DNA of 35,189 nt from an uncultured Clostridia bacterium (GTDB taxonomy: Bacteria; Bacillota; Clostridia; Christensenellales; Borkfalkiaceae): assembly GCA_944343275.1 (NCBI GenBank), contig CALVMH010000017.1, positions 1 to 35,189 on the forward strand. The letters are read 5' to 3'. Below, in pieces: positions 18,628 through 21,536 of this stretch. The notes below the pieces were generated by a model. That model did not search any database, was not told the origin of the DNA, and saw only the letters and a list, made by a program, of their open reading frames with translations. The position numbers and the translations under genes were made by a program. The number at the start of each line of letters is the position of its first letter. Positions within the stretch are counted from its first letter, which is position 1.

Positions 18628-18912
18628 TCATTTTTTCAGAAACAGGGCAAGTTCGTCCGCCAGCGCCCGAACGGCAGGGCGGTTCAGGGAATAGATGAGC
18701 GTCTGTGCCCGCCGCTCGACGACGACAAGCCCGCTCTCTTTGAGAACGGACAGATGATGGGAGACGGTCGCCGCCGAACGGCAGAACTGATCGGCAAGTT
18801 CCCCCGCCGTATGCGGCCGAGACTGCAACAGCCGCAGGATCTCCCGCCGCGTTTCATCCGCCAGCGCCGTCCAGCCGTCCGGCGCGCGCTCTTTCCGTGT
18901 CTGCTCCCGCAT
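18628..18912 (-). CDS. ArsR-family transcriptional repressor
   Basis: This 94-residue winged-helix protein carries the ArsR fold: ALADETRREILRLL, then AGELADQFCRSAATVSHHLSVLKESGLV as the DNA-reading helices, then a wing. It probably represses its own operon, including the CoA-disulfide reductase, through the palindrome at 18919-18952. C44 is the only Cys, and the ELCVCD metal motif is missing. Arsenic sensing of the classical type is therefore unlikely, and the two-Cys persulfide switch of BigR/SqrR cannot form within one chain. A single-Cys sensor, or sensing between subunits, remains possible. The ribosome binding site AAGGAT lies inside the operator. Confidence 0.88.
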   Translation of the reverse strand: MREQTRKERAPDGWTALADETRREILRLLQSRPHTAGELADQFCRSAATVSHHLSVLKESGLVVVERRAQTLIYSLNRPAVRALADELALFLKK

Positions 18913-19005: not shown

Positions 19006-20274
19006 TCAGTCGTCGTCCTCGTCGTCCCCGCACTCCCCTTCGAGCGTCTCTTCATAGAGTTCTTCGACGGCTTCGAGAAATTCGTCGTACAATTCTTCGA
19101 AGATGTACGCATCGCCGCCGTGTTCCGTCTCCCGCCGCAGCTCTTCAAATTCTTCGAGCAGGTCCTCCGCCTCCTCGTCGCCGTCTTCAAAGAGGACGTC
19201 TTCGCCGAGATAGAGATATTTCTTGTTAAAGTCCGCTTTGGACATGCCCCCCGCCGAGACCGCCGACAAGTCCGCCTCATACGTTGCAAGCAGCGCGCGG
19301 ACGCGATCCGCAAATCCCTCCCGCAGGTGCGCCAGCTCCCGCTCGAGATAGTCCTCGAAATCCCCCATCGCCTGTTCGTCGTAGGCGGCAACGAGCGCAT
19401 CGAGGTCCGCCTGCGAAAGGCTCCCGACCGTATAGGCGCCGCCGAGCTCCTCTTGCAGCCGCGCCTTGACGCGCCGTTCCAGCTCCTCGGCGTCCGCGCC
19501 CGTGGCGTAAACTTCCACCCCCTGCGCCGTGATGAGATGCTTCTGCTCGGACAGGCGCGCAAAGCGCACGCCCGCCTCCTCGGGCGAAAGCCCCGTCAGG
19601 TCTTCGCCTGCGAGCAGAACGGCGGCGACCGCCCCGCTCTGCGCAGGCTGCGCCGCGTGCGCCTGCATCACGCGGTTGTACACGTCGGGCGCATGCTGCT
19701 CCGCCTCCCGCCGCAATTCACGTTCCAGCTCTCCGCGTTCCACTCTGCCACCTCCGCCCGTCCGCTCCTCGGACAGGGCTGCCTTCATCTTTGAAACGGC
19801 GCGCGAATAATGCCATGTGACCGTGGGAAGCGGCATGGAGAGCATGGCTGCGATCTCCCGCCGCTTGTACCCCTCCGTCGCCGCAAGCATGAGAACGGAA
19901 AACTCCTCCCGTTTCAAAATGCGCCGCGCAAGGTCGATGAGCAATCCGTATTCGTCCGCGCCGCAGGTGCCGAAGGGGAGCGGGTCTGCCCGTTCGTCCA
20001 CCGAAATTTCGCGCGAACGCCTGCGCCATACGTCGAGCGCCTCGTTCCTGGCGATGCGCGCGATCCATGCCGCGGCGTTCGTTCCCCGCCGATAGCGGGC
20101 GGCATTGCCGAGCACCTTTAAGTAGACCGTCTGCATGACGTCCTCGGCGAGCATGCGTTCGCGCACGACGGAGAGTGCGATATAATAAACGCTCTTGCGC
20201 GTTCGTTCATAAACTTCGCCGAAGGCTGTCTGATCTCCCGCTGCCAGCCTTGCCAGCGCTTCATCGAGCGTCAC
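19006..20274 (-). CDS. ECF-type sigma factor with long C-terminal extension
   Basis: Residues 1-170 are a sigma-70 family ECF factor. Region 2 is about 8-85 (DQTAFGEVYERTRKSVYYIA, AEDVMQTVYLKVL, WIARIARNEALDVWRR). Region 4 is about 112-168 (KREEFSVLML and a helix-turn-helix ending in TVTWHYSRAVSKMK). Residues 176-422 are extra. They begin with an ELERELRREAEQHAPDV-like segment, then GEDLTGLSPEEAGVRFARLS, then coiled, very acidic helices ending in DDEDDD. No membrane helix is present. This part loosely resembles pieces of anti-sigma (RsgI-like) proteins, which is inference. The GTG start at 20274 follows GGGAGGA. It has its own promoter and lies just downstream of a lipoprotein gene. Confidence 0.85.
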   Translation of the reverse strand: MTLDEALARLAAGDQTAFGEVYERTRKSVYYIALSVVRERMLAEDVMQTVYLKVLGNAARYRRGTNAAAWIARIARNEALDVWRRRSREISVDERADPLPFGTCGADEYGLLIDLARRILKREEFSVLMLAATEGYKRREIAAMLSMPLPTVTWHYSRAVSKMKAALSEERTGGGGRVERGELERELRREAEQHAPDVYNRVMQAHAAQPAQSGAVAAVLLAGEDLTGLSPEEAGVRFARLSEQKHLITAQGVEVYATGADAEELERRVKARLQEELGGAYTVGSLSQADLDALVAAYDEQAMGDFEDYLERELAHLREGFADRVRALLATYEADLSAVSAGGMSKADFNKKYLYLGEDVLFEDGDEEAEDLLEEFEELRRETEHGGDAYIFEELYDEFLEAVEELYEETLEGECGDDEDDD

Positions 20275-20303: not shown

Positions 20304-20332
20304 AGTATATCACGAAATTCCCCGCCCGTCAA
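20304..20332 (-). promoter_or_regulatory. promoter of the ECF sigma gene
   Basis: The minus strand has -35 TTGACG (20327-20332), a 17-base spacer and -10 TATACT (20304-20309). Transcription would start near 20297, about 23 bases before the GTG. The sigma gene can thus be expressed apart from the lipoprotein upstream, by the housekeeping polymerase. Confidence 0.8.
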
Positions 20333-20375: not shown

Positions 20376-21419
20376 TCAATCGTCAGAATCGTCCGGATCC
20401 AGCCTGCTGCCGTCGGCAAAGGTGTAGCGGTATGTCCCGTCCTGCGCCTTGGTGACGACGAACCTGCCGCTGCCCTGCGGCGCACGGTACTTCACGCCGA
20501 TGGCAACGGCGCCGTCCGCACGCTCTGCGCGCTCCACTTCGAAGACCGTCTTTTCGCCGTCTTTCAGGATGGCAAGTTCATACTCCGTCTCCCGCGCGCC
20601 GTGTTCGCTCTCCTCCTCGAAGGAGACGCGCGTCTCCTCGGCGAGCCGTCCGCCGTCATAGACGCGGTAGACATATTCGCGCTCGCTCTCCCGTTCGCCC
20701 GCCTCCTGCTCGTTCTCCTCTTCGATGTCCATGCGGACATAGTTGCCGCGGTCGGCGGGATCGGACGCCATGATCCAAAGTTCCTCGCTCGTCTCCTCCT
20801 CGCCGTCCTCCCGCTCCGTCTCCGACATGCGGTAGCCCGACATCTCATACAGCGTGCCGTTCATTTCCAGAACGCCCGTCAGCGTATAGGCGACGCGCTG
20901 CTCGTACTCGCCCTCGTCCTGTTCTTCCTGCATGCCCGCTTCCGTTTCCGTATAATACATCGTATGCGAAAGCGCGCCGCCGAACGGGTCCTTCCCCGTG
21001 ACTGTGAGTTTGTACTTGAACGCATACGCGGGATCGGTGTTTTCCGTCACGTCCGCGCGGAACGCTCCTTCGTCGAGAAACCCTTCGAGCAGATCGAAAT
21101 ACTCGTTGAACGTGCGCACCTCGTCGCGCAGCTGCTCCGCCTCGGCGGGTTGCTGTGCCGTCTGCCCGTCCTCCGTCTGTTCCGTCCCCGCATCCCGATA
21201 GGACACGCCTGCCGCGAGAGAAGCGTTCGCCGCAAGCAGCCCCGCCGTCGTCACCGCGCCGAGCGCATAGGCGCTCTTTGCGCCCGCCTCCGCCTGCGTG
21301 CCCGCGCCGCCGCCAAAGCCGCCCCCCGTCAGGGATGCGCCGTCTTCGCCGCACCCCGCAAACGCAAAGAGAGCCGTGCCTGCCAATACTGCCGCCATCG
21401 CCGTCCATACTTTTTTCAT
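20376..21419 (-). CDS. predicted lipoprotein of unknown function
   Basis: The 347-residue protein has a lipoprotein signal: MKK, a hydrophobic stretch, then FAGC with the lipid-modified Cys at residue 23. A Gly/Ala-rich low-complexity segment follows to about residue 95. The rest is very rich in Glu and looks like beta strands (YVYRVYDGGRLAEETRVSF, GRFVVTKAQDGTYRYTFADG), without known catalytic motifs. It should sit on the outer face of the cytoplasmic membrane. AAGGAGGA precedes ATG 21419. It is 101 bp upstream of the extended sigma factor on the same strand, so a sensing or envelope-stress role is conceivable but unproven. No clear promoter is seen upstream. Confidence 0.8.
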   Translation of the reverse strand: MKKVWTAMAAVLAGTALFAFAGCGEDGASLTGGGFGGGAGTQAEAGAKSAYALGAVTTAGLLAANASLAAGVSYRDAGTEQTEDGQTAQQPAEAEQLRDEVRTFNEYFDLLEGFLDEGAFRADVTENTDPAYAFKYKLTVTGKDPFGGALSHTMYYTETEAGMQEEQDEGEYEQRVAYTLTGVLEMNGTLYEMSGYRMSETEREDGEEETSEELWIMASDPADRGNYVRMDIEEENEQEAGERESEREYVYRVYDGGRLAEETRVSFEEESEHGARETEYELAILKDGEKTVFEVERAERADGAVAIGVKYRAPQGSGRFVVTKAQDGTYRYTFADGSRLDPDDSDD

Positions 21420-21536
21420 ACTGCATTCCTCCTTGTTTCCGGCTGCCCCGACGGGCGCCTTTCACTCATACAACGCACAAACCGTCCCGTTTGTTGGAAA
21501 GATCGCAAAATTTCCGAAAAAAATTTTATGCAGCAA

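Follow-up and report, generated by a model that had tools for sequence, protein, structure and literature searches.

The window, by which we mean the whole 35,189-nucleotide stretch of DNA analysed here, carries a gene (19006..20274, on the minus strand like all features described below) that we read as a conserved one-chain fusion of an ECF sigma factor with an RsgI-like anti-sigma factor. Under this reading, which we hold with a probability of roughly 0.8, the relatives of this gene code for membrane-bound proteins, the copy in the window has suffered an internal deletion that would leave it blind to outside signals, and a free form of the anti-sigma factor is probably made as well. The gene is a single 422-codon open reading frame with a GTG start at 20274 and a stop codon that ends at 19006. 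Its residues 1-168 (19771..20274) contain sigma regions 2 and 4 according to both Pfam and NCBIfam. Specifically, Sigma70_r2 matches residues 22-88 (7.4e-14), the sigma70-ECF model TIGR02937 scores 48.6 bits against a cut-off of 42.9, and Sigma70_r4_2 matches residues 120-163 (2.4e-05) with 24.3 bits, slightly below its cut-off of 25.7, a model that scores above cut-off in two fused relatives, L107 and L110. The presence of regions 2 and 4 and the absence of region 3 is the arrangement of an ECF sigma factor, in agreement with a sequence-only reading of this stretch that had placed a complete ECF sigma factor at the N-terminus. The sigma part stands N-terminal to an anti-sigma part on the same chain, the anti-sigma role being assigned by homology.

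The identity of the C-terminal half came through its relatives only. A profile search of residues 176-422 against Pfam and NCBIfam, which had been proposed as the way to place this half, gave nothing above cut-off, the only hits being DUF2064 (E 0.17) and MacB (E 0.21). Pfam detects no RsgI_M (PF23750) in the window protein or elsewhere in its genome, and this model matched in two of 14 control genomes. The cytosolic RsgI_N domain likewise has no Pfam match in the window protein, L107 or L110, and in these same three proteins no known anti-sigma family of Pfam matches the cytosolic segment described below. However, the C-terminal half is not a chance reading frame, since it shares 58-68% identity with nine fused relatives over about 200 residues (the frame of one of them being broken) and 36-45% with those unfused relatives that give long matches. 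Alignment divides it into a conserved cytosolic anti-sigma segment at residues 178-205 (VERGELERELRREAEQHAPDVYNRVMQA; 19660..19743), a remnant of an RsgI-like extracytoplasmic domain at about residues 217-290 (19405..19626), which aligns with the RsgI_M match at residues 258-355 of L107, and acidic helices with a tail at about residues 291-422 (19009..19404). The two segments that had been said to recall RsgI-like proteins loosely indeed correspond by homology to stretches of an RsgI-like protein of the relatives, and the alignments support descent of the C-terminal half from an anti-sigma factor of RsgI-like type that was joined to its own sigma factor. By homology the cytosolic segment is the putative inhibitor of the sigma factor. 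An earlier idea, that the acidic end mimics DNA, is unlikely because in the aligned relatives this end lies beyond a membrane helix. Many of the anti-sigma factors of the fused loci L107-L123 and of numerous unfused loci among L013-L022 and L087-L099 carry a poly-aspartate tail at the outer end, which is short in the window copy.

The relatives were collected at several taxonomic depths. With the C-terminal half as query, 26 of 301 genomes of the family, including the genome of the window, have a match at E <= 0.001, and with the whole protein as query 66 of 103 genomes of the genus have a match at E <= 1e-10, many of these matches covering just the sigma part. Scanning the genome contigs yielded 25 loci, four of which are in records named Candidatus Gallimonas. 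Intact one-frame fusions of 495-558 codons occur in 15 of the 102 other genomes of the genus, where G160, with a fusion frame that is broken midway, is the sole broken case; one genome of a sister genus (G219) also has an intact fusion. We aligned 17 fused relatives with the window gene for a set of 18 genes, and counts of intact genes given here leave out the broken gene of G160 (L117), which makes 17 intact genes with the window and 16 without it. When L107 was used as query against 396 genomes of the order, 101 had a match, and among the matches listed, apart from the two pieces of the window, G111 was the only one in which a stop-free match spans both halves. Matches in more than ten genomes from other families (L136 and L143, for example) extend past the sigma part in frame with a single internal stop.

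Among the intact fused relatives a membrane helix is universal (16 of 16), with a 19-residue Kyte-Doolittle mean of 2.62-3.32 as compared to a best value of 1.02 in the window protein. In the alignment each of them shows the cytosolic segment, then a basic stretch and then the helix, which in most relatives is followed by YISINPSVEF or a near variant of it. The motif INP[SA] is present in 15 of these 16 proteins, the exception being L121 of G210, an intact fusion with an insertion of about 27 residues at the place where the motif would be. Among 30 unfused anti-sigma factors I[ND]P is found in 24 and the INP motif is missing in six. RsgI_M matches both of the relatives that were searched out of the 16, with E-values of 2.4e-10 for L107 and 3.2e-10 for L110. 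When a profile of the outer domain made from 7 of the 16 relatives was compared with the PDB, the top match was the anti-sigma chain 8her_B (E 0.34), which starts at the proline of the INP motif; because the E-value is 0.34 and an unrelated enzyme comes next at 0.37, this match was used for register only. The same kind of search with the whole fusion gave a convincing PDB match for the sigma part only.

This layout suggests how the intact proteins may work. In the relatives the sigma factor would form the N-terminal, cytosolic end of a membrane protein, followed by a short cytosolic anti-sigma segment, one helix, an RsgI-like outer domain in which an Asn-Pro motif is the probable site of self-cleavage and, usually, a poly-aspartate tail. 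By analogy with RsgI and IutY, such proteins would be membrane receptors that free their sigma factor by stepwise cutting, in which an outside signal would separate the pieces of the self-cut domain, after which cleavage of the helix by a site-2 protease would set the sigma factor free. The genome of the window does code for a site-2 protease homologue, which says little because homologues are found in 14 of 14 control genomes.

The fused genes can be compared with unfused pairs in 30 loci of other species of the same genus (L013-L022 and L087-L106), where homologous sigma and anti-sigma factors are coded by separate genes in different frames in all 30 cases. The anti-sigma start, as chosen by script, overlaps the sigma stop codon by four bases in 22 of these 30 pairs, and GGAGG lies at most 16 bases before the chosen start in 18. 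Read in the sigma frame, several unfused junctions are GGA GGG AAG GCA TGA and the fused ones are GGA GGN NNN NNN NTG. From these reading frames we infer that two genes became one frame apparently through one base added between the Shine-Dalgarno sequence and the start codon of the anti-sigma gene. In a tree of the sigma part from 18 fused and 30 unfused genes, all fused genes fall on one side of a branch (100/99), and the window gene pairs with the intact L107 (97/92). A FastTree of the whole fused proteins places the window gene next to L116 rather than L107. Since L107 and L116 both have the helix, under either tree the deletion in the window copy is later than the fusion.

A second conserved element of these loci is an upstream gene, which in the window codes for an acidic lipoprotein of 347 amino acids (20376..21419) that has no Pfam or NCBIfam assignment. 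A homologue lies upstream on the same strand in all 18 fused loci, at a distance of 49-114 bases in 16 of them and of 326 and 704 bases in L117 and L120, respectively. In 27 of the 30 unfused loci, too, the fetched flank contains part of the lipoprotein gene, upstream and on the same strand. L104 has no lipoprotein homologue in the fetched stretch, and in L103 and L105 a domain homologous to the lipoprotein forms the outer part of the anti-sigma factor itself (2.5e-66 and 2.1e-67), which suggests that the lipoprotein and the anti-sigma factor work together. On the other side of the fusion gene, a downstream gene at about 18630-18912 on the same strand, which we take to be an ArsR-type regulator, belongs to a cluster of neighbours that is common to 13 of the 18 fused loci.

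The lipoprotein gene of the window is preceded by an ECF-type promoter, TCCAACA-16-CGTTG (21471..21498), and the fusion gene by a sigma-A-like promoter that we assigned by eye, TTGACG-17-TATACT (20304..20332). AAC and CGT cores are usual in ECF promoters. By eye, TCCAACA-16-CGTTR stands before the lipoprotein gene in 18 of 18 fused loci, a count that holds by construction because these loci served to derive the pattern; what is independent of them is how rare the pattern is. Specifically, the exact pattern occurs once in the genome of the window, at this very site, and its reversed control does not occur there. Genus-wide it is found in 40 of 103 genomes, with 47 sites against 11 for the control among the matches listed, and each of the 17 fused genomes in the genus has it at this locus. 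When one mismatch is allowed there are six sites in the genome of the window against seven for the control, so nothing beyond the exact site is informative, and there may be weaker targets. The single exact occurrence suggests a very small regulon, in which the sigma factor would most likely transcribe the upstream lipoprotein gene.

What sets the window copy apart is the absence of about 66 residues of L107, comprising the membrane helix and the INP segment, at a point between residues 216 and 217 (19626..19627). The sequence-only reading was correct that the remainder of the protein has no membrane helix, and aligned against the fused relatives the window protein also has no Asn-Pro motif. 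Because these residues are present in the relatives, the soluble character of the protein is derived, by what the alignment identifies as an in-frame internal deletion. Having lost the helix and the first part of the outer domain in frame, the window form can be neither anchored in the membrane nor cut by the stepwise route proposed for the relatives; it should be cytosolic and is most likely blind to outside signals, being either always held inactive or leaky. No second copy of the fusion gene was found in the genome of the window, a draft of 92 contigs.

Whether such a locus is dying is the alternative that survives best, and we judge its chances as somewhat short of even. It holds that the deletion killed signalling and that the frame persists as the event was recent, which overlaps with our preferred explanation in all but the word dead. 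In line with this alternative, the helix and the INP segment have both been lost, and the frame is broken in the corresponding region of a relative, that of G160. What speaks against a dead gene is that the frame, the invariant residues, the promoter and an internal start signal that is discussed below are all retained. Relative to residues that are invariant in the other intact fusions, the window gene has changed at 1 of 72 positions in the sigma part, at 0 of 6 in the cytosolic segment and at 2 of 55 in the C-terminal part, and in the same test the other fused genes have 0-5, 0-3 and 0-7 changes, respectively. A C-terminal part with no sign of decay fits either a recent deletion or a working protein. 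As to the G160 locus (L006, L041 and L117 being the same locus), its fusion is split into two frames at the membrane-helix region, the site that is also damaged in the window.

The internal start signal lies at the junction of the two halves. A Shine-Dalgarno-like GGAGG (19751..19755) stands seven bases ahead of an in-frame GTG at residue 178, from which a free anti-sigma remnant of 245 amino acids could be made as a second product (19006..19743). GGAGG is kept in 17 of the 18 fused genes, and all 17 intact genes, the window included, have GGAGG-7-NTG in frame (GTG in 14, ATG in two and TTG in one); the broken L117 has kept the internal GTG without the GGAGG. Codon usage at the junction is unusual as well. 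When third-base changes were counted on the tree for the 51 fully conserved fourfold columns of the 17 genes, the junction GGA codon alone had none and the other 50 had 1 to 9 changes each. GGA makes up 11.6% of 545 other glycine codons in the 18 fused genes. NTG is present in all 17 genes in five columns after the start, four of which are methionine columns (ATG in 17, 17, 16 and 17 genes), and among the five columns GTG predominates at the junction alone. The start column of the gene itself has GTG in ten genes, ATG in six and TTG in one, being NTG by construction as the start codons were picked by script. These junction counts are not independent of each other because the fused sequences are related, and as 9 of the 18 fused genes have further places with GGAGG before NTG, the motif alone is not rare and only its shared position is telling.

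Selection seems to keep the buried start signal, and with both start signals kept the gene probably makes a free anti-sigma factor in addition to the fusion, which renders doubtful the former statement that this switch has no separate anti-sigma protein. A different explanation, which we regard as unlikely though not negligible, is that the conserved GGAGG is a site of ribosome pausing or has merely persisted from the time when two genes met there. Shine-Dalgarno-like sequences can slow ribosomes, and in keeping with this explanation the additional GGAGG-NTG places just mentioned are common and the predicted opening of the mRNA at the internal start is not clearly raised, with a mean percentile of 0.65 for the 17 genes, 0.54 for the window and 0.05 for L107. 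However, a leftover would be expected to drift, yet the third base of GGA is unchanged in 17 of 17 genes where all other fourfold columns have changed at least once, and a pause would not need the NTG, yet the seven-base spacing to NTG is kept in every intact gene. Programmed frameshifting at the GGAGG was also considered and dropped, as a nearby stop in another frame that is seen by eye in the window is not at the same place in L108.

Our preferred reading of a membrane-bound family with one deleted member also bears on the initial proposal, that the protein is a self-restraining soluble switch in which, within the cytosol, the C-terminal half folds over its own sigma factor and releases it upon an internal signal. 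The part of this proposal that puts a sigma factor and its putative inhibitor on one chain is supported, with an origin from a fused RsgI-like anti-sigma factor. Solubility as the design of the system is not, given that the helix is present in 16 of 16 intact relatives, where the C-terminal half lies beyond it, and that only a single genome, of 92 contigs, has shown a form with no helix. The window copy itself is consistent with a soluble switch in that it has no helix, keeps the conserved anti-sigma segment with an undecayed C-terminal part and retains its likely target promoter, but overall we consider such a switch improbable. The same low probability is given to a fuller version, in which loss of the helix would have turned a transmembrane receptor into a cytosolic switch, with the gene making a self-restrained sigma factor plus a free inhibitor from the internal start. 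Least probable of all is an assembly error that conceals an intact gene, for even though the evidence comes from one copy in a single draft genome of 92 contigs, the gap is clean and in frame and short-read assemblers normally skip about 200 bases only when there is a long exact repeat.

Sigma/anti-sigma fusions with membrane helices have already been described, namely IutY, ECF48, ECF52 and ECF53 (excerpts of PMC8999054 and PMC5411451). IutY of Pseudomonas putida (ECF243) is a hybrid that is activated by stepwise proteolysis, and like the relatives of the window gene it has an ECF sigma factor and an anti-sigma factor on one chain with one membrane helix between them (excerpts of PMC5411451 and PMC8999054). 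It differs in that, according to these excerpts, it works with an outer-membrane siderophore receptor, whereas here there is an RsgI-like outer domain, a neighbouring lipoprotein gene and a conserved internal start signal, with a window copy that has no helix. ECF48, ECF52 (SCO4117) and ECF53 of Actinobacteria are likewise sigma factors that are extended at the C-terminus by an anti-sigma part with membrane helices, but the excerpts of PMC8999054 describe a zinc-finger anti-sigma domain, for which there is no Pfam match in the window protein, L107 or L110. RsgI of Clostridium thermocellum has an outer domain that cuts itself, and its RsgI_M-type domain past the membrane helix is also the likeness to our relatives, which have the INP motif at the corresponding place (excerpts of PMC12203970). 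In those excerpts, however, RsgI is a separate protein with SigI as its partner and an N-terminal SigI-binding domain, whereas here an ECF sigma factor is fused and RsgI_N has no match in the window protein, L107 or L110. Our search of the open-licence literature found no fusion of an ECF sigma factor with an RsgI-like domain, no conserved start inside such a fusion and no helix-less member.

These results indicate that a two-gene operon of sigma and anti-sigma factor can become a one-chain receptor, apparently by a change of one base. The conserved internal start makes it testable whether a tethered sigma factor still requires an extra inhibitor, and the single-site promoter together with the conserved lipoprotein gene provides a ready reporter. 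Finally, the window copy is a natural deletion that raises the question of what purpose the membrane anchor serves.
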